Origin: Chlorobium sp.
GTDB taxonomy: Bacteria; Bacteroidota; Chlorobiia; Chlorobiales; Chlorobiaceae
Direction: 5' to 3'
Length of the DNA: 64,000 nucleotides
Assembly (NCBI GenBank): GCA_005862285.1
Contig: SZXW01000001.1
Location: 1-64,000 of the forward strand
How positions within the stretch are numbered: the stretch's first letter is position 1; every line of letters begins with the position of its first letter. The notes beneath the pieces were generated by a model. That model had not been told where the DNA came from, searched no databases, and saw nothing but the letters and a program-made list of their open reading frames with translations. The position numbers and the translations under genes are program-made. This document shows, in pieces, positions 6,136-43,083 of this stretch.

Positions 6136-6810
6136 TTACCCTCCTTGAACTTTAGGCACAAACATCTGCCGGTAATCGGGAGCGATATCGTTCAGACCGG
6201 TAATATCCACCTCCAGGCAAAGCCGTTCGGCAAATGGAAACAGGGATCTGGCAGAAAATAAATCCGCGCCGGCATACCTGATACCGGAAGCCGTAAACAA
6301 AGGCTGAAGTTCATCCAGTCCCCGTCCAGCGGCAACCACACCACCCGGCACTCCGGAAGCAGCAGCGATCACGTCTCCGGCACCTCCTCTATCGACACGG
6401 TCATGCCACAGCCCTGAAGATAGTTCTTCCCGTGTATAACATGCGAAATAATATTCACCTTTCCTCGACTGTATTACCGTCATGACCGTAAGGGTTGGTT
6501 CATCGAGAGCTGCAGCCATAACCGGCATGGTCGGAACGGCAATCAGAGGAACACCAAGACCCCAGGCAATCCCTTTTGCAACCGATATGCCGATACGCAA
6601 TGCGGTGAACGATCCCGGACCTGAAGAAAACGCGATGCGGTCAAGGTCCTTGCGGTCAAGACCTCCGGAAGCCAGTACCTCTCCGATCAGCGGCACAAGG
6701 TTTTCCGCAGCTTTCTGCCAGTCAGTGCTCTGCGCTTCGTAAACAATTCCGGCGGCCAGGACCGCTGCGCTGAGCGAAGCATGTGTGCATTCGATGGCAA
6801 GGATATTCAT
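6136..6810 (-). CDS. tsaB: tRNA threonylcarbamoyladenosine synthesis protein TsaB
   Basis: TsaB/YeaZ (224 aa) is the non-catalytic ASKHA-fold partner of TsaD and TsaE in making t6A37 on ANN-decoding tRNAs. Diagnostic segments are the N-terminal [15 protein letters not shown] and [13 protein letters not shown]. The ATG overlaps the tsaE stop by four bases (ATGA), so the two are translationally coupled and made together. Confidence 0.95.
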
Positions 6811-7247
6811 CCGCCTGTTCGTTTAATGGTAATTCTTCGGAGATCGTCTCCGGCATGTTCAAGCGTCACTGTTACGGTATAGCGGTCTGCAAATTCAGGA
6901 AAACGGTCACCCCATTCCACGACCGCAAGATACGCGCCTGACAGATATTCGTCAAAACCCGTCGCTGCAAGCTCCTTAACTGTCTTGATGCGGTAAAGGT
7001 CGAAATGATGCAGAGTGACATCCTCTCCCTTCAGTGAGCCGTGGTAGATATTGAGCAGTGAAAACGTCGGGCTGGACAGCTGGTCGTCACAGTTGAAAAC
7101 CTCTGTGATGCCGCGCATGAAAACGGTCTTCCCCGCTCCTAGCTGACCGCAGAGCGACACCGTTTCACCTGGCCTCAGGTCCGACGCGAACCTCCGGGCA
7201 TACTCCATGGTTTCTTCGGGCGATCTCGAGAGGAACTCGTCGCTCAT
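6807..7247 (-). CDS. tsaE: tRNA threonylcarbamoyladenosine ATPase TsaE
   Basis: TsaE/YjeE (146 aa) is the P-loop ATPase of the t6A complex. The Walker A motif is GQLGAGKT. The conserved SSPTFSLLN, the HFDLYR strand and the [10 protein letters not shown] segment are all present. It lies 6 bp after the DUF1015 gene and overlaps tsaB, inside a scpA-DUF1015-tsaE-tsaB operon. Confidence 0.95.
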
Positions 7248-7253
7248 CGATGC

Positions 7254-8528
7254 TCAGTCAAGGGTTTTAAAAACAAGCCCGGTCATGATCTTCGGGTAGA
7301 AAAATGTCGATTTCTGCGGCATGACCCCGCCAGACTCCGAAACATCAAGCACCTGCGCGACTGTTGCCGGCTTGACCATAAACCCGACCTGTGCCTTGCC
7401 GTTCGCTACGGACTGGAAAACCTCTCCGTCGTCCTTCACATAGACGATGTTTGTCTGGAGAGCCATCGCTTCCTGGCTGATACCGAGCAGGCGGGTCAGC
7501 ACCACTTCGTGCAGCACGACCAGTCCGAGCTTCTGCAGGGAAGGTGAGATCGATGTGTCGAGAAGATCGGCGGCATTGTCCCTGAGCGTGATCCCGAGCA
7601 CGGAACCCGCGGTCACGACGCCATACGTATAGCTCGATTTGGCGGCTTCGAGATAGGCTTTCAGCGCAGCCCTGCCGTCAAGTTCGGTCACGTCGAAGTG
7701 CTCTTCGAGACGGCTGCGGAACTTTGCGGCTTCGAACCCTTCAATGCTGTGTATCAGGCGGTGTATCGGAAAAACAACAAGCCCTGTGTCATGGATGTTG
7801 TTCAGGTAGGTCAGGATGAAATTGTAAGGTTCTTCGCCGGTATGGCCTGGATTTGCAGCTTCACGCTCTCTCCGGTAATTTAGGCCGGTTTCGTAACGAT
7901 GATGACCGTCGGCAATATAGACATTTTTTTCGGCAAGCACTTTCTGGATGTCTACCGCAAGCTCGGAATCGGCGAGGCGCCAGAGGCGGTTCCTGACACC
8001 CTGAAAAACCGCATCGATAATCGGTTCGTTCGCGGAGGTAAAACCTGCGATCAGGCTGTCGGCAAGGCCTTCTCCATCGGCATAGAGCCCGAAAATCGCG
8101 CTGATGTTGGTTTTCGTTGTCCTGAAAAGGTTCAGGCGGTCGGCCTTAGGTCCTGAAAGGGTCCTTTCGTGCGGAAGCACTTTCCTTTCAGCGAACTCAT
8201 GCAGCCGCATGGCGGCAAACAGGCCGCTGCGAGTATGGGTATGCCCCTCCTGGTCGGTAAAGGTCTGGCTGTAAGGATAGAGCGCCGGCTCTGTTTCCTG
8301 CATCAGTATTCCGTTCTTCATCCATTCCCCAAGCCTTTCGGCAGCTGCCCCGTAAGGATCGTCCTCCATCGGCAGTTCGAGGCGTATCGAATTGCATGGT
8401 GAACTTTCGTAAAGTTCCTGCTGCATGGAAGGAGGAATGACATCATAGGGAGGGCAGATGATGCGCGCCATATCGCCAACGGTTTCAGGATTGTACCGCA
8501 AACCTTTGAAAGGACGTATTTCCGGCAT
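7254..8528 (-). CDS. DUF1015 family protein
   Basis: A 424-residue member of DUF1015 (PF06245), a widespread cytosolic family without a firmly assigned reaction. Recognisable parts are the N-terminal IRPFKGLRYNPE and CPPYDVI, and the central IADGHHRYET. The start at 8528 (MPEIRPFKG) is chosen over an ATG 16 codons upstream because the family begins here and the upstream extension would run into scpA. It sits 11 bp after scpA and 6 bp before tsaE. Confidence 0.85.
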   Translation of the reverse strand: MPEIRPFKGLRYNPETVGDMARIICPPYDVIPPSMQQELYESSPCNSIRLELPMEDDPYGAAAERLGEWMKNGILMQETEPALYPYSQTFTDQEGHTHTRSGLFAAMRLHEFAERKVLPHERTLSGPKADRLNLFRTTKTNISAIFGLYADGEGLADSLIAGFTSANEPIIDAVFQGVRNRLWRLADSELAVDIQKVLAEKNVYIADGHHRYETGLNYRREREAANPGHTGEEPYNFILTYLNNIHDTGLVVFPIHRLIHSIEGFEAAKFRSRLEEHFDVTELDGRAALKAYLEAAKSSYTYGVVTAGSVLGITLRDNAADLLDTSISPSLQKLGLVVLHEVVLTRLLGISQEAMALQTNIVYVKDDGEVFQSVANGKAQVGFMVKPATVAQVLDVSESGGVMPQKSTFFYPKIMTGLVFKTLD

Positions 8529-8539
8529 TCGTTCAGGTA

Positions 8540-9289
8540 TTAAGTGGTTAGTTGAGAAGAAGAAACATCCTGACATCTCCGGGCGATCCAGAAATCGTCA
8601 TGGCCATCCTTGACCAGTACCGCTATCCTTCTGTTCTTGCATAATTCGAGCACGGCAAGGAAAGTTACAACGAAAATGATCCGCTCGGTAATCCCTTCGA
8701 GCATCGTCCGAAAGGAAACATTGTCGCTTTCACGCAGCCTCGAAAGAATCAGCAGGCTCTGTTCCTCTACCGTTACCGGCGCATCCATGACATTGCGGGT
8801 CATGGGCTTTGGAATATTGTCGAGCACCGCCTGATAGGCAAGCATGAGATGATAGAGAGTAGGGCGTTTGACCGGTTCATCAAGCTCATCGATAAGTTCA
8901 GGTTCGAACATTTCGAACAACCCGCGAGCGAAAAGGGCTTCACGCTTTTCGGCAAGACGGTCAAGAACTGTTGAAACCTCTTTGATACGCTTGTATTCGA
9001 GTAGCCGTTGCACCAGTTCCTCCCTTGGATCGAATTCGTCAGAAGCATCACCGTCCGGCGATGGACGGGGCAGAAGCATCTTCGCCTTGATGCTCATCAG
9101 CATGGAAGCCATGTAGATGAAGTCAGCGGCAATCTCGAGATTCAGGTTCCTCGCGGCATGAAGGTAACCGATGAACTCCGCGGTGATCTTTGCGATGGGA
9201 ATGTTGTATATATCCAGTTCATCGCGCCTGATAAAAAAAAGCAGCAGGTCGAGCGGCCCTTCAAATTCATCGAGACTGATCCTGAACAT
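8540..9289 (-). CDS. scpA: Segregation and condensation protein A
   Basis: ScpA (249 aa) is the kleisin that bridges the two SMC heads of the bacterial condensin. The N-terminal signature FEGPLDLLLFFIRRDELDIY and the following helix ITAEFIGYLH are textbook. The C-terminal winged-helix part lies around residues 175-235 (FRTMLEGITERIIFVVTFLAVLE region). It is the promoter-proximal gene of the scpA-DUF1015-tsaE-tsaB run. scpB is not in the window. Confidence 0.92.
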   Translation of the reverse strand: MFRISLDEFEGPLDLLLFFIRRDELDIYNIPIAKITAEFIGYLHAARNLNLEIAADFIYMASMLMSIKAKMLLPRPSPDGDASDEFDPREELVQRLLEYKRIKEVSTVLDRLAEKREALFARGLFEMFEPELIDELDEPVKRPTLYHLMLAYQAVLDNIPKPMTRNVMDAPVTVEEQSLLILSRLRESDNVSFRTMLEGITERIIFVVTFLAVLELCKNRRIAVLVKDGHDDFWIARRCQDVSSSQLTT

Positions 9290-36264: not shown

Positions 36265-38355
36265 CTATGTGTAGTTCTTCCTTATCCCGAGCTTGTCGAT
36301 GCGTGAATAGAGGGTTTTAGGGTTGATCCGGAGCAGTTCCGCCGCACCGCCTTTCCCGCTCACCCGACCGCCCGCGCGTCCGAGCGCATCGAGGATGAGA
36401 CCGCGTTCCATGGCACGGACCTGGAGGTCGAAATCCTCCAGCGTAACCAGTTCCCTCCGGCTCTCGGAAAGGCCCCCGGCCTGGGGCATCGGCACGGAGG
36501 AAAAATCGAGGGTCGTGCCTTCAGAGAGGATAACCGCCTGCTCGACAGAGTGGGCAAGTTCGCGGATATTGCCTTTCCAGTTCCTTGCCTGAAGCTCCAG
36601 CATGTCGGTTTCACGGACCGGCAGAGGCGTTTTTCCGAACTCCCTTGAAAACTTCTCCACAAAATGCCGCACAAGCATCGGGATATCCTCGCGCCTTTCT
36701 CTCAGGGGCGGAAGCGTAATCGGGAAAGCATTCAGGCGGAAATAGAGGTCCTCCCTGAATTTCCCGTCGGCAACCTCCTTTTCGAGGTTCCGGTTGGTAG
36801 CGGTGATGACGCGCACGTCAACCGGGATGACCTGTTTCCCGCCGATGCGCTCGAGCTCCTTTTCCTGGAGCACCCGCAGCATCTTGGCCTGCAGCTCCAG
36901 CGGAAGCTCGCCTATCTCGTCGAGGAAAATAGTCCCTCCGTTCGCAAGCTCGAACTTTCCCGCACGCCTTTCGGTCGCGCCGGTGAAACTGCCCTTTTCA
37001 TGACCGAAGAGCTCCGTTTCGATCAGTGAAGCCGGAAGTGCCGCGCAGTTGACTTTCACCAGCATCCGCTCCCTGCGGGAGGAAAGATTGTGCAGGGCCC
37101 TCGCGATAAGCTCCTTGCCTGTGCCGGTTTCACCCTCGACAAGCACGGTCGCGTCGGTCGGCGCCACCTGGCTCACCCTGCGGAGCACCTTCATCAGCTC
37201 CTCGCTCTGACCGATGATCTCCTCGAAATTGTGCGCGGCCTTGATCTCTTCGGCAAGGTATATCTTCTCGCCCTCGAGTTTCTGCAGCAGTTCGTCGATT
37301 TTTTCGAAGGCGAGGAAATTCTGCAGCGCAAGGGAGAGCTGGGGAACGATGAGATTGACCGTCGTCAGGTCCTCTTCTCCGAACGATCTTCCCGTATCGG
37401 ATATGATCAGCCCGGCGCTGCTTCCCGCTATGTCCCACAGCCTGACAACGATCACCGAACAGATGCCGAATTTTTCCCTTACCAGGTCGACCAGCCTGAA
37501 GTTTCCGCACAACCGCGTAAAATCATCTCCCGAATAGACTCCCGGCAGGGAAATCAGCGAAAAGCTCTCTTTCATGGTTACACCGAAACCAAGGGCGTCG
37601 TGCAGAATGGCTGAGGATGCAGGCGAGAAACGCTCTTCCGAATCGCGCATGTAATTGTCGAAGACCCTCGGTTTTCCGTCCTCGCCGAAAACCCTGATGC
37701 CGACAAATGCACAGGGCACGAGCTTGTTGATCTGCTCGCTGACGGCCTGCATCATCCGGCTCCGGTCCTTGATGGTCAGCAGCGCATTGTTGACGGCAAG
37801 CTGCATGGCGGTCTGCGCCTCGCGCTGACGGAGCTCCTCGTAGGCCGCCGCATTGCTGACAGCCACGGCTATCGGGGAGGAGAGCGTTACAAGCAGCTCT
37901 TTTTCATCTTCCGACCAGTTTTTAAGCTGCTTCGAAACGAAGTTAAGGAAACCGATCACCTTGCCGCCCGAGCGCAAGGGAGAAAGCACCACCTGGCGCA
38001 TGCCAAGATCCAGAAGCATCCTGGGGATCGGGAAATCCGAAGGATAGCGGTCAATCGCATCCTCTATGGCAAGTACCGATACTCCCGTATCACCGAGGTG
38101 CGGCTCTATCCATGATCCTGCGACCGGACGCTTCTTTCGCTGGATGCTGTCCGGAACTTCGAAACGCAGCATCTCGAAAAAAACGTTGACATAGTGCCTG
38201 TCCCGGTCGAACGTTATGATTACCGCCGAATCGAACTCGAAAATAAGCCGGAGCTTGTCCGTCAGGGTCCTGAAAAGTTCCTGCGGTTCGCGGATTGTAC
38301 CTATGGCATCGCTGATATACTGCATCAGCTGATGAGATTCGCTCAAAGAGGCCAT
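36265..38355 (-). CDS. GAF-GAF sigma54-dependent activator (bEBP)
   Basis: A 696-residue enhancer-binding protein. Two GAF-type sensor domains occupy about residues 18-170 and 185-345. The AAA+ domain follows with Walker A GETGTGKE near 407, the sigma54-contact loop GSFTGA near 454-459 (a variant of GAFTGA), Walker [12 protein letters not shown] and the arginine finger region [18 protein letters not shown]. The C-terminal Fis-type helix-turn-helix ([21 protein letters not shown]) ends the protein. The layout matches FhlA/NorR-like activators that bind small molecules, redox cofactors or NO. It is divergent from the tolC-uspA-emrAB operon, whose promoter region has a -24/-12 site and twin palindromes, so this operon is its likely target. 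Confidence 0.95.
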
Positions 38356-38389
38356 TATTGCATCGGGATGATGGATGAATTTCCATTTA

Positions 38390-38406
38390 TTCTGATTTTT
38401 TCAGAA
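38390..38406. promoter_or_regulatory. Palindromic operator 1 (probable activator site)
   Basis: TTCTGATTTTTTCAGAA, a perfect 6-bp inverted repeat around a 5-bp AT spacer. It is one of two identical sites, 35 bp from the activator's start codon and about 120 bp before the -24 element of tolC. This is the usual distance for a bEBP enhancer, and it could also allow autoregulation. Confidence 0.8.
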
Positions 38407-38422
38407 CACTTTCTCAGGAATA

Positions 38423-38439
38423 TTCTGATTTTTTCAGAA
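38423..38439. promoter_or_regulatory. Palindromic operator 2 (probable activator site)
   Basis: A second identical copy of the 17-bp palindrome, here extended by one further A/T pair (38422-38440). Its centre is 33 bp from that of site 1, close to three helical turns, so both sites face the same side of the DNA. This is typical of co-operative binding by a bEBP hexamer. Confidence 0.8.
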
Positions 38440-38525
38440 TTAAACAACTTTTTGATCAGTACCTCCGAAAACCAAAACCCTCGCAGGCAGTGGGTTTGCG
38501 GGCACAACAGCCGAAATCCGGATTC

Positions 38526-38541
38526 TGGCATGGAAATTGCT
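38526..38541 (+). promoter_or_regulatory. sigma54 (-24/-12) promoter of the efflux operon
   Basis: TGGCATGGAAATTGCT fits the consensus TGGCACGNNNNTTGCW with one mismatch (T for C). The GG and GC dinucleotides are correctly spaced. Transcription should start near 38551, leaving a leader of about 25 nt before the tolC ATG at 38577. Both the divergent activator and the twin enhancers support it. Confidence 0.85.
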
Positions 38542-38576: not shown

Positions 38577-39911
38577 ATGAAAAGAAAACGTACCGCATAT
38601 CTCCTCTTCGCCGCCCTTTTACTCGGAACACAGTTGCCTGCTTCGGCCTTTGCCTCGGAAACTGCGTCCGGACCGATAACCGTAGAGGATGCCATCCGAC
38701 TGGTAAGAGAGAACAATCCCAAAGTCCGTCAGGCTGCCGAAGGGGTCAAAGCTGCAGATGCAAGAGTAACAGAGAAACGCAGCGGATTTTTGCCCCAGAT
38801 CAGTGCAAGTGCCGGTTACCGGTATATCGACCCCGTTTCCGAGATGGAATTCGGAGGCTCTTCGATGAAATTCATGCCGAACGACAATTACGATGCAAAA
38901 GTTAAAGCGCAGATCACGCTGTTCGACTTCGGAAAGACTGCAAGCGAGGTAAATATTGCCAAATCGGGCAGAAAGAGCGCCGAACAGGAACTCGACATGA
39001 CCGGTCGGGAACTTTCATACTCCGCAGTCAGGCTTTTCTACGGCATCATGTTCCTGCGCGAAGCCGTCAAGGTGCAGGACCGGGAAATCACCGCCCTCAG
39101 GAAAAGCCTCGACTATATCGGGAAAAAGTACAAAGAAGGCGCCGCTACGAAATTCGACGTCCTCACCATCGATGTAAGGCTTTCCGCAGCAGGGAACAAA
39201 AAAACCGATATCGAAACCGACCTGAAAAACGCCGAAACCTCGTTCCGGAGACTTACCGGCATCCCGGAAAACGACCCTGTCAGGCTGAAAGGCGATTTCA
39301 CCTTCACCCGCGCCGGATACGAACTTGAAAAGCTCACTGCCCAGGCACTCCGGGAACGAATCGAAATCGGGCTTGCCAGAGAAAAGGAGAATTCCGCGAG
39401 ATTCACGAAAAACCTTGCCGTCAGGGAAGGTTTGCCCAAAATCGTCGGAAGCGCCGCATTCGGCTATACCAACGGTTATCTGATCCCTCCCGCGCCCGAC
39501 ATCAACGAGATCCGCCGGAATTATTCCGCCGGGGTCGAACTGCATGTGCCGATATTCACCGGTTTCAAGACAAGCGCAAAGAAAAGCGAAGCCCTGGCAA
39601 TGATGCGCGGAGCCGAACAGCAGCGTATCGACACCGAACAGGAAATAAGGGAAGAGGTCGAACGCTCCTTGAATTCCCTGAACGCCAGCATCGGCAAAAT
39701 CGGCACGACCGAACTGCAGGTAAGCCAGGCAAGGCTTGCTGCAGAACATGCAAGGATACGTTACCAGAACGGCCTGGCCACTTCGCTCGACCTGCTGGAC
39801 TCTGAAGCTTCCCTTTCGGAAGCCGAGCTCGGGCACCTGAAGGCGCTCTATGACTGCACCATTAACTCTTATGCGCTGAAACGCGCCGCCGGCGATCAGT
39901 TCCGGCCATAA
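38577..39911 (+). CDS. TolC-family outer-membrane efflux protein
   Basis: A 444-residue outer-membrane channel subunit of the TolC/OEP family. A signal peptide (MKRKRTAYLLFAALLL...AFA) precedes two homologous coiled-coil and strand repeats, as seen in AIRLVRENNPKVRQAAEGVKAADARV and the later ALREREIE-type helices. The ATG at 38577 is chosen because it begins the signal peptide and lies just downstream of the -12 element; the longer frame from 38490 would start upstream of the promoter. It is the first gene of a four-gene unit with uspA, emrA and emrB. Confidence 0.93.
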   Translation: MKRKRTAYLLFAALLLGTQLPASAFASETASGPITVEDAIRLVRENNPKVRQAAEGVKAADARVTEKRSGFLPQISASAGYRYIDPVSEMEFGGSSMKFMPNDNYDAKVKAQITLFDFGKTASEVNIAKSGRKSAEQELDMTGRELSYSAVRLFYGIMFLREAVKVQDREITALRKSLDYIGKKYKEGAATKFDVLTIDVRLSAAGNKKTDIETDLKNAETSFRRLTGIPENDPVRLKGDFTFTRAGYELEKLTAQALRERIEIGLAREKENSARFTKNLAVREGLPKIVGSAAFGYTNGYLIPPAPDINEIRRNYSAGVELHVPIFTGFKTSAKKSEALAMMRGAEQQRIDTEQEIREEVERSLNSLNASIGKIGTTELQVSQARLAAEHARIRYQNGLATSLDLLDSEASLSEAELGHLKALYDCTINSYALKRAAGDQFRP

Positions 39912-39936: not shown

Positions 39937-40380
39937 ATGAAAAGAGGCAAAAAAACCATACTCTGCCCGGTGGATTTCTCCCCTGGATCGGAAGAACTGC
40001 TGCAGTACTGTTCGGATATGTACGGCGAGGATGCTGAAATCATCGTCCTGCATGCTGCGAACCCCGATACCGCAGACAGGGAGATGCAGATGAAAGAGTG
40101 TCTTCATATCTTTTCGCGCTATTCCGACCGCCTCTCGATACATCACTGCGAGGTCCGGTTCGCACTCGAATACGGCCCTGCATGGTCGGTCATCACCGGC
40201 TTTGCAAAGAAGCATGCGGTCGATCTGATCGTTATCGGATCGCACGGCGCAACCGGGCTTACCAGGCTGCTGGTGGGCAGCACCGCAGAAAAAGTAATGC
40301 GCCAGGCTCCCTGCGCTGTCATGGTGCTGAGGCTGCCTGAATATCGGTCACCGGGTATCGAAGCCTCGCGCGCCGGATGA
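39937..40380 (+). CDS. Universal stress protein (UspA family)
   Basis: A 147-residue Usp domain of the ATP-binding kind, with GSHGATGLTRLLVGSTAEKV matching the G-2x-G-9x-G(S/T) phosphate loop. It opens with TILCPVDFSPGSEEL. Its place between tolC and the emrA homolog is odd for an efflux operon and suggests that it senses or modulates transport under stress. The gaps are 25 bp before it and 31 bp after. Confidence 0.93.
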   Translation: MKRGKKTILCPVDFSPGSEELLQYCSDMYGEDAEIIVLHAANPDTADREMQMKECLHIFSRYSDRLSIHHCEVRFALEYGPAWSVITGFAKKHAVDLIVIGSHGATGLTRLLVGSTAEKVMRQAPCAVMVLRLPEYRSPGIEASRAG

Positions 40381-40411
40381 CAGTTTTATTATCAAACAAC
40401 AAAATCGATTG

Positions 40412-41449
40412 ATGGACACCATGTCAGAACCACAGAAACAAACAGGAGCGAAGGCTCCGGAAGGAAACCCGAACAGCGTTACAGAGAACGGGGAACGTTC
40501 GGAAAAAGGACGTTTTTCCGCCGGAAACCCGGTCCGCCTGGCCATTTTTGCGGTAATGCTCACTGCCGGCCTTGTCTGGGGAGGCTTCAAGCTCTATCAC
40601 TCATACCTGTATGTCGAAACCGACAATGCACAGATAGAGGGTGACGTCTACCCGGTCATTTCCCGCATTCCGGGCAAAGTGGAAAGCGTGCTCGTGAAAG
40701 ACAACCAGAAAGTCAGCCGGGGGGATACGCTCATAAAGCTCGACCCGGCCGATTATGAAGTAAGACGGGACCTTGCCGCTGCAGCGCTGCAGAGCGCAGA
40801 AGCCGCAGCATCGGCTGCATCGGCTGAAATCAGCGCAGCGGGTGCGAACGAGCGCAAACTGAATGCCGATCTTCACAGAAACCGGAACCTCAGGCAGCAG
40901 GATGTGATATCCCAGGCCGAGTTCGATGCCGTCAAGGCAGGAGCGGAAACGTCGTCCGCGAAGTATGCCTCGGCATCGAGCCAGTACAAAGCTTCAGGAG
41001 CACAGATGAAAGTTCGCGAGGCCGAGCTCCGCAATGCGGAACTGCAGCTCTCCTATACCGCAATCACCGCACCTTCTTCGGGATTCGTTTCCAGAAAGAA
41101 TGTGCAGCCCGGCCAGTACGTAGCTCCCGGACAGCAACTGATCGCCCTCGTTGCAAGCAGCGACCTCTGGGTTGTAGCGAACTACAAGGAAACCCAGCTC
41201 GAGAACGTCCGCCCCGGACAGCCGGTCGTTATCCATATCGATGCCTGGCCCGGCAAGGAGTTCAAGGGAAAGGTCGAATCGATATCATCCGGAACGGGAG
41301 CGAAATTCTCCCTGCTGCCGCCTGACAACGCAAGTGGCAACTTCGTGAAAGTAACCCAGCGGGTGCCGGTGAAAATCGTTTTTACCGAAAAGCCGTCCGA
41401 GCCTATTGCGGCAGGCATGAACGTGATAGCTGAAATCAAAGTGAAATAA
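40412..41449 (+). CDS. Membrane-fusion (HlyD/EmrA) efflux adaptor
   Basis: A 345-residue periplasmic adaptor anchored by one N-terminal membrane segment (about residues 42-60). The first lipoyl half begins ETDNAQIEGDVYPVISRIPGKVESVLVKDNQKV, then come two Ala/Glu-rich coiled-coil helices (residues about 115-205), the second lipoyl half, and a beta-barrel (VQPGQYVAPGQQLIALV...). It is EmrA-like: it would link the MFS pump to TolC. The start at 40412 is preferred to an in-frame TTG just before it; 40421 is also possible. Confidence 0.93.
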   Translation: MDTMSEPQKQTGAKAPEGNPNSVTENGERSEKGRFSAGNPVRLAIFAVMLTAGLVWGGFKLYHSYLYVETDNAQIEGDVYPVISRIPGKVESVLVKDNQKVSRGDTLIKLDPADYEVRRDLAAAALQSAEAAASAASAEISAAGANERKLNADLHRNRNLRQQDVISQAEFDAVKAGAETSSAKYASASSQYKASGAQMKVREAELRNAELQLSYTAITAPSSGFVSRKNVQPGQYVAPGQQLIALVASSDLWVVANYKETQLENVRPGQPVVIHIDAWPGKEFKGKVESISSGTGAKFSLLPPDNASGNFVKVTQRVPVKIVFTEKPSEPIAAGMNVIAEIKVK

Positions 41450-41475: not shown

Positions 41476-43083
41476 ATGAATAAAGGAAGAAAAAATACCA
41501 TCGCAACAGCCGCTGTTTCTCCGGACCATACCTATGAAACCGGAATCCGCAAGGTGATCATCACCGCGACGGTAATCATCGCCGCGATGCTCGAGCTTAT
41601 CGACACCACCATCGTGAACGTTGCGCTGAACCATATCAGCGGAAACCTCGGCGCGAGCATCGAGGATGTCTCCTGGGTCGTTACGAGCTACGCAATTGCG
41701 AACGTGATCATTATCCCGCTTTCCGGGTTCCTCGGCAACCTGCTCGGCAGGCGAACCTACTTCATCGGCTCGATCCTGCTCTTCACGTTCGCCTCGCTGC
41801 TTTGCGGCATGGCCGACAACATCTGGATGCTGGTGATTTTCCGGTTTCTGCAGGGGATCGGCGGCGGGGCGCTCCTGCCGACATCCCAGGCGATCCTCTA
41901 CGAAACCTTCAAACCTGAAGAGCGCGGCACCGCGACAGGCATCTTCTCGATGGGGCTCGTGCTCGGGCCGACCATCGGCCCACTGCTCGGCGGTTACCTT
42001 GTCGATTATTTCGCCTGGGAATGGTGCTTTTTCGTGAACATTCCGGTCGGACTGATGGCCGCATGGTCGGCATTCACCTTCATCAAGGAACCGAAAGTGA
42101 AGCACGATGTCGTGAAAATCGACTGGACGGGTATCGGCCTGCTTGCCCTCGGCATAGGATCGCTGCAGTTCATCCTCGAGCGCGGCGAATCGAAAGACTG
42201 GTTCGATACACCATACATCACCTGGTTCACGATCATAGCCATTGTATCGCTTGCCGCTTTCGTCTGGTGGGAACTGCACTTCGACCATCCGGCCGTCGAC
42301 CTGAGAGTCCTTGCCCGGAGCAACACGCTTGCGATCGCCGCCGTGCTCACCTTTGTGGTCGGTTACGGGCTGTACGGCTCGCTGTTCATATTCCCTGTCT
42401 TCGTGCAGCGCCTGCTCGGCTTTACGGCGGTCCTGACCGGCTCGGTGCTCTTTCCAAGCGCCATGCTGACGGGTGTGATATCATTGCCGCTCGGCATCGC
42501 CCTGCAGAAAGGTGCATCTCCGAAACTGCTCATGACGTTCGGCATGGCGGCATTCGCTCTGTTCTGCTGGGAACTGGGCCAGCAGACCATGCAGTCCGGG
42601 GCGGAAAATTTCTTCTGGGTGCTGCTTCTGCGCGGTATCGCCCTCGGCTTCATCTTCATCCCCGTGACCATGCTTGCCGTATCGGGCCTCCATGGCAGGG
42701 ATGTCGGACAGGCGACCGGCCTGAACAACATGGTGCGCCAGCTCGGCGGCTCCTTCGGAATCGCGATCACTAACACCTATGTTTCGCAGCGTGTCGCCGT
42801 GCACCGCACCGAAATCCTCAGCCACCTCTCGCCTTTCGATCCTGCTGCCGTTCTGCGTCTCGACGCCGTGCAGCAGGCCGCGCAGACGAGGGCATTCTCG
42901 CCGGTCGAAGCCCAGCAGGTTGCCCTGAAGGCTCTCGAAGGCACGGTAACCGTACAGAGCTATCACCTCGCCTATATGGATGCGTTCAAGCTGGTCGCGC
43001 TGCTCTTCGTACTCTGCATGCCGCTGCTTTTGCTGATCAGAATCAGAAAAGGGGAAAAAACCGACCTCTCTTCCGCGCACTGA
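41476..43083 (+). CDS. DHA2-family MFS drug exporter (EmrB-like)
   Basis: A 535-residue 14-segment major facilitator drug:proton antiporter. Visible motifs are LELIDTTIVNVALNHI (motif D1), LGNLLGRRTYFIG (motif A between segments 2 and 3), and GIFSMGLVLGPTIGPLLGGYL (motif C, antiporter signature). It completes an EmrAB-TolC-type pump exporting hydrophobic drugs, uncouplers or amphipathic acids. It ends before a hairpin facing msrB. Confidence 0.94.
   Translation: MNKGRKNTIATAAVSPDHTYETGIRKVIITATVIIAAMLELIDTTIVNVALNHISGNLGASIEDVSWVVTSYAIANVIIIPLSGFLGNLLGRRTYFIGSILLFTFASLLCGMADNIWMLVIFRFLQGIGGGALLPTSQAILYETFKPEERGTATGIFSMGLVLGPTIGPLLGGYLVDYFAWEWCFFVNIPVGLMAAWSAFTFIKEPKVKHDVVKIDWTGIGLLALGIGSLQFILERGESKDWFDTPYITWFTIIAIVSLAAFVWWELHFDHPAVDLRVLARSNTLAIAAVLTFVVGYGLYGSLFIFPVFVQRLLGFTAVLTGSVLFPSAMLTGVISLPLGIALQKGASPKLLMTFGMAAFALFCWELGQQTMQSGAENFFWVLLLRGIALGFIFIPVTMLAVSGLHGRDVGQATGLNNMVRQLGGSFGIAITNTYVSQRVAVHRTEILSHLSPFDPAAVLRLDAVQQAAQTRAFSPVEAQQVALKALEGTVTVQSYHLAYMDAFKLVALLFVLCMPLLLLIRIRKGEKTDLSSAH

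Follow-up and report, generated by a model that had tools for sequence, protein, structure and literature searches.

The 64,000-nucleotide window (Chlorobium sp., assembly GCA_005862285.1, contig SZXW01000001.1, positions 1 to 64,000 of the forward strand) carries a pair of identical palindromes. They lie between a sigma-54 activator gene (GAF/AAA+/Fis type) and the tolC-usp-emrA-emrB operon divergent from it. The features of this region are listed below.

36265 to 38355, minus strand: sigma-54 activator with an N-terminal GAF domain, a Sigma54_activat AAA+ domain with a GSFTGA loop, and a Fis-type HTH_8 domain
38390 to 38406 (centre 38398), no strand: candidate enhancer site 1, a 17-bp palindrome TTCTGA-N5-TCAGAA, TTCTGATTTTTTCAGAA
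38415 to 38420, no strand: third half-site CAGGAA (consensus ACAGAA), outward-facing from site 2
38423 to 38439 (centre 38431), no strand: candidate enhancer site 2, a 17-bp palindrome identical to site 1, TTCTGATTTTTTCAGAA
38526 to 38541, plus strand: predicted -24/-12 promoter of the tolC operon, TGGCATGGAAATTGCT (GG at 38527-38528, GC at 38539-38540)
38577 to 39911, plus strand: TolC-family outer membrane efflux protein, first gene of the putative target operon
39937 to 40380, plus strand: universal stress protein (Usp), inside the operon
40409 to 41449, plus strand: EmrA-like periplasmic adaptor (HlyD family)
41476 to 43083, plus strand: EmrB-like DHA2 MFS permease (TIGR00711, 416 bits against a cut-off of 230)

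Both palindromes lie in a 19-nt direct repeat (TATTCTGATTTTTTCAGAA, at 38388 and 38421) with a 33-bp start-to-start period, and 34 bp separate the activator ATG (38355) from site 1. The first-pass annotation had described two exact copies with centres 33 bp apart, close to three helical turns, and had seen no others; all of this stands, as the spacing equals 3.14 turns at 10.5 bp and exact matches to TTCTGAN5TCAGAA were confined to these two places in the 2.61-Mb Chlorobiaceae genome (G000), where a reversed control pattern gave 0 occurrences. With up to two mismatches, the motif matched 210 places per strand in the whole genome versus 61 for the control; looser matches are abundant, and the informative unit is therefore the exact paired array alone. 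The annotation overlooked the third half-site, whose GAA stands at -5 to -3 relative to site 2. With this half-site included, the array core spans 50 bp (TTC-N11-GAA-N11-GAA-N2-TTC-N11-GAA) and has a single genomic occurrence even at one mismatch.

Activator and promoter

The activator protein (696 aa) matched the domains of sigma-54 activators: an AAA+ domain (PF00158, 2.6e-73) with its lid (PF25601), a GAF sensor at residues 24-166 (PF01590, 2.7e-13), and a Fis-type HTH at residues 646-689 (PF02954). The GSFTGA loop, Walker A, and Walker B are readable in the translation. Scores against curated NCBIfam equivalogs fell below the cut-offs for NorR (364 versus 476 bits), FhlA (398.9 versus 830 bits), and NtrC (300 versus 558.6 bits). 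Residues 9-179 aligned with PDB 3k2n (1.6e-62), as did the N-terminal GAF of the orthologue in genome G014 (174 residues, 367 bits); 3k2n is a sigma-54-dependent regulator in which the solved structure covers the GAF domain only, and the GAF domain of this activator appears to have been solved already.

The genome encodes one sigma-54 (PF04552, 187 bits). The -24/-12 element has the full consensus (score, 14.2/14.2), lies 96 bp downstream of the candidate enhancer, and predicts a transcription start ~25 nt 5' of the tolC ATG, relative to which the site centres fall at about -121 and -154; the dyads are placed in the range of ~80 to 200 bp upstream of a -24/-12 promoter. A scan of the region gave no sigma-70 promoter or terminator.

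Conservation of the array

An activator match was carried by 77 of the 86 family genomes. Comparison was made over 71 distinct orthologous intergenic regions (Chlorobium, Chlorobaculum) from the family genomes and named relatives, the closest named relatives of the window genome being Chlorobiaceae metagenome-assembled genomes. The 33-bp register of the twin core was identical in 71/71 regions, with no indel inside the 50 bp, and the consensus read TTC(C/T)TGAAA..TTAAGAACAC...TATACAGAA(T/A)ATTCTGATTTTTTCAGAAT. Site 2 retained TTC (position 0) in 71/71 regions and GAA (+14) in 67/71; site 1 retained TTC (-33) in 70/71 and GAA (-19) in 69/71; the GAA of the third half-site (-5) was kept in 69/71; and all five triplets were intact in 62/71. 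A -24/-12 element matched in every one of the 71. Around this fixed 33 bp, flanking distances vary: the activator start lies 6 to 37 bp from the array, and the promoter 52 to 185 bp. In a few orthologues a degenerate site 1 led automatic pairing to other spacings; their aligned rows still give the 33-bp register. Conservation with register, as is looked for in enhancers (upstream activating sequences) of the NtrC/NorR kind, was thus found over 71 regions. The proposal that the palindromes act as enhancers for tolC gains strong support from this comparison: family-wide, a fixed-register array stands beside the activator and is invariably accompanied by a -24/-12 promoter for tolC.

A second activator copy in another genome (L012/L133, G017:C25) has site 1 half-sites TTCCGA/TCGGAA, with the N5 and 33-bp geometry unchanged and a longer gap to tolC.

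An IHF site between enhancer and promoter is not conserved, since an ATCAAN4TTR-like match was present in just 4/71 regions. An IHF-like sequence (ATCAAAAAGTTG, 38443-38455, minus strand) lies just downstream of site 2 and was seen at this place only in the window and its closest relative.

When the five-triplet core was searched in the 86 family genomes with one mismatch allowed, the array adjoined the activator in nearly all activator-bearing genomes, a few of them with a diverged copy. The remaining one-mismatch hits had sequences that looked unrelated and came at a frequency near the control rate. In one genome (G051) no full activator was found, and the array adjoins an activator truncated at the contig end; another (G040) has a second array copy close to a contig end. 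The suggestion that further copies would define a wider regulon was not borne out: exact matching in the source genome and one-mismatch searching of the 86 genomes returned no convincing second target. Nor were there numerous unrelated genomic occurrences, which had been named as evidence against the enhancer; the source genome has only the two exact sites, in one array. One array per genome, kept with the activator, suggests a single-operon enhancer, and from its distribution the array looks like the enhancer of a dedicated regulator rather than a regulon marker.

Array-promoter distance

Measured from the centre of site 2 to the -24 GG, the spacing was 52-53 bp at 2 loci, 62-64 bp at 2, 74-75 bp at 2, 82-86 bp at 31, 93-98 bp at 33, and 185 bp at 1; these classes lie near whole helical turns, with the exception of the 185-bp case. 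Distance changes read by hand on a TolC tree comprised about seven independent large events (-11, -21, -23, -10, -32.5, -21, and +90 bp), for which the mean cosine against a 10.5-bp turn was 0.60 (p = 0.011), or 0.85 (p = 0.0005) with the 185-bp case left out. The phase signal is not sharp, with periods of 10.25 to 11 bp fitting about equally. Because the events are few and hand-coded and these periods fit alike, the tendency of enhancer-promoter distances to fall near whole helical turns is suggestive. The only clearly out-of-phase case is locus L124 (G042), in which a real insertion with repeated inverted-repeat sequence downstream of site 2 leaves the promoter at 185 bp. Dependence on the face of the helix has been shown experimentally in a two-site sigma-54/NtrC system (review, PMC7408454).

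Paralogue and wider homologues

A second activator in the source genome (G000:C1:261068-263158) is 58% identical and divergent from another Usp gene. Its two sites (TTCTGATTATTCAGAA and ATCTGAATATTCAGAA, at G000:C1:261000 and 261033) share the half-site TTCTGA/TCAGAA and the exact 33-bp spacing with those of the window, and the palindrome is one base shorter (16-bp dyads, N4). Four further loci (L137, L138, L157, and L158) fell into one clade with the paralogue in a quick tree and likewise have 16-bp dyads. The recognition helices of this clade and of the window activator are nearly identical; most window-type proteins have RIDKLGI, and most of the paralogue clade R(I/L)DALGI, a position that, at a guess, sets the preferred palindrome spacing. 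Behind the -24/-12 promoter of the paralogue (L112, G000:C1:254000-270000, at 6179-9168) lies a tolC-like leader sequence; an intact tolC was not detected there, which suggests a partly decayed duplicate module.

Outside Chlorobiota, two Bacteroidota genomes (G141, L163; G216, L162) carry the whole divergent activator/tolC-usp-hlyD-mfs module, with 45-47% activator identity and dyads of ~18 bp that, read by eye, are 31-32 bp apart. Both loci show a -24-like element (TTGGCACAAG), and the -12 region behind it is unusual (TTTCGG or TTAGG). In one genome of the same order (G301), an activator adjoins tolC-like and hlyD-like genes. A CAGA/CAGGA element resembling the third half-site is also found in the paralogue regions and the Bacteroidota homologues. 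More distant activators (L018-L081) had no tolC, usp, hlyD, or mfs neighbours in the examined flanks. It is conceivable, if on balance doubtful, that paralogous activators distinguish their enhancers by palindrome length (N5 versus N4, with ~18-bp dyads in Bacteroidota) and not by letters, and that enhancer-promoter distance has evolved in whole-turn steps.

Interpretation

Sequence comparison leads to the reading that the twin palindromes are very probably an upstream activating sequence, serving a dedicated enhancer-binding protein of group 3 type (GAF-sensing) whose gene is adjacent. Dimers of the activator would bind both 17-bp sites through the Fis-type HTH, on nearly the same helical face, and the third half-site would probably help a further activator subunit to load. 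Upon sensing of a signal by the GAF region, the AAA+ domains are predicted to form a hexamer and the DNA to loop, so that the sigma-54 RNA polymerase poised at the -24/-12 element would be remodelled and the putative drug-efflux operon tolC-usp-emrA-emrB transcribed. In orthologues, the activator start codon follows the array after 6-37 bp, so occupancy of the array probably also represses or tunes the activator gene; from position, the autoregulation proposed earlier is plausible, though weakly supported.

This closeness to the activator start is also what would be expected if the palindromes were mainly an operator of the activator's own promoter, bound by the activator for autorepression or by another repressor, with any effect on tolC secondary. 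That reading fits the TATAAT-like box seen on the activator strand in the inter-site interval of 39/71 regions (at least 4/6 matches), but the window's own copy lacks it (GAGAAA), two sites and a third half-site in fixed register exceed the needs of a simple operator, and every region has a -24/-12 promoter on the opposite side at helical-turn-spaced distances; we regard a role chiefly as operator as very unlikely.

Action of the repeats as RNA, either as a hairpin in the activator 5' leader or as an attenuator, is less probable still. An unusually stable fold is predicted for the minus strand of the window (-21.4 kcal/mol; z, -3.9), as is expected of any palindrome pair, but site 1 begins 6-7 bp from the start codon in several orthologues. 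Structures differ between orthologues, with z anywhere from about -8 to above 0, whereas the core sequence and the 33-bp register are kept; an RNA element was rejected. Rfam gave no credible match, only sub-threshold eukaryotic snoRNAs. The array is 72% A+T, a composition that favours near-palindromes and counts against the enhancer reading, and the genome has many A+T-rich near-palindromes that differ from the motif at two positions; nonetheless, both exact copies are here and the array occurs once per genome family-wide, which refutes chance or a generic genomic repeat, the least credible explanation of all.

Read as an enhancer, the array belongs to a system ordinary in kind (looping activation like that of NtrC and NorR) with an unusually well-kept geometry. 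The glnA sites of NtrC are ~17-bp palindromes roughly three turns apart and ~100-150 bp upstream of a -24/-12 promoter, with the half-site TGCACC. The array resembles them in its two tandem ~17-bp palindromes about three turns apart upstream of a -24/-12 element; it differs in half-site and in the extra half-site abutting site 2, and NtrC, a response regulator that is phosphorylated, acts on several targets, whereas the window activator has a GAF-type sensor and one predicted target. Paired tandem enhancer sites are a feature of NtrC (PMC7408454).

As to arrangement, NorR-norVW and PspF-pspA are divergent activator/target pairs; for NorR, several enhancer sites lie in the intergenic region common to the pair. 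NorR-norVW is the closer likeness in that a group 3 GAF activator is divergent from a sigma-54 target with enhancer sites between them; the half-site differs, the target here is a predicted efflux operon, and the window activator, below the cut-off of the NorR model, gave no sequence evidence of NO sensing. The E. coli emrAB genes are controlled by the MarR-type repressor EmrR. The EmrA- and EmrB-like subunits and TolC-family channel encoded here are similar to E. coli EmrAB-TolC, but differ from it in the predicted sigma-54 activator and in the Usp gene inside the operon. Group 3 (GAF) activators include NorR (PMC7175178).

No published description of this system was found in the open literature (many subscription papers lay outside its scope). 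Most members of the family keep this sigma-54 activator, for which the comparison supplies a motif, a target operon, and a likely mechanism. The paralogue offers a test case for specificity by spacing. Helical phasing is usually tested by artificial insertions; with about 70 naturally varying versions of a single bacterial enhancer, the family opens enhancer-promoter phasing to study as an evolutionary pattern.
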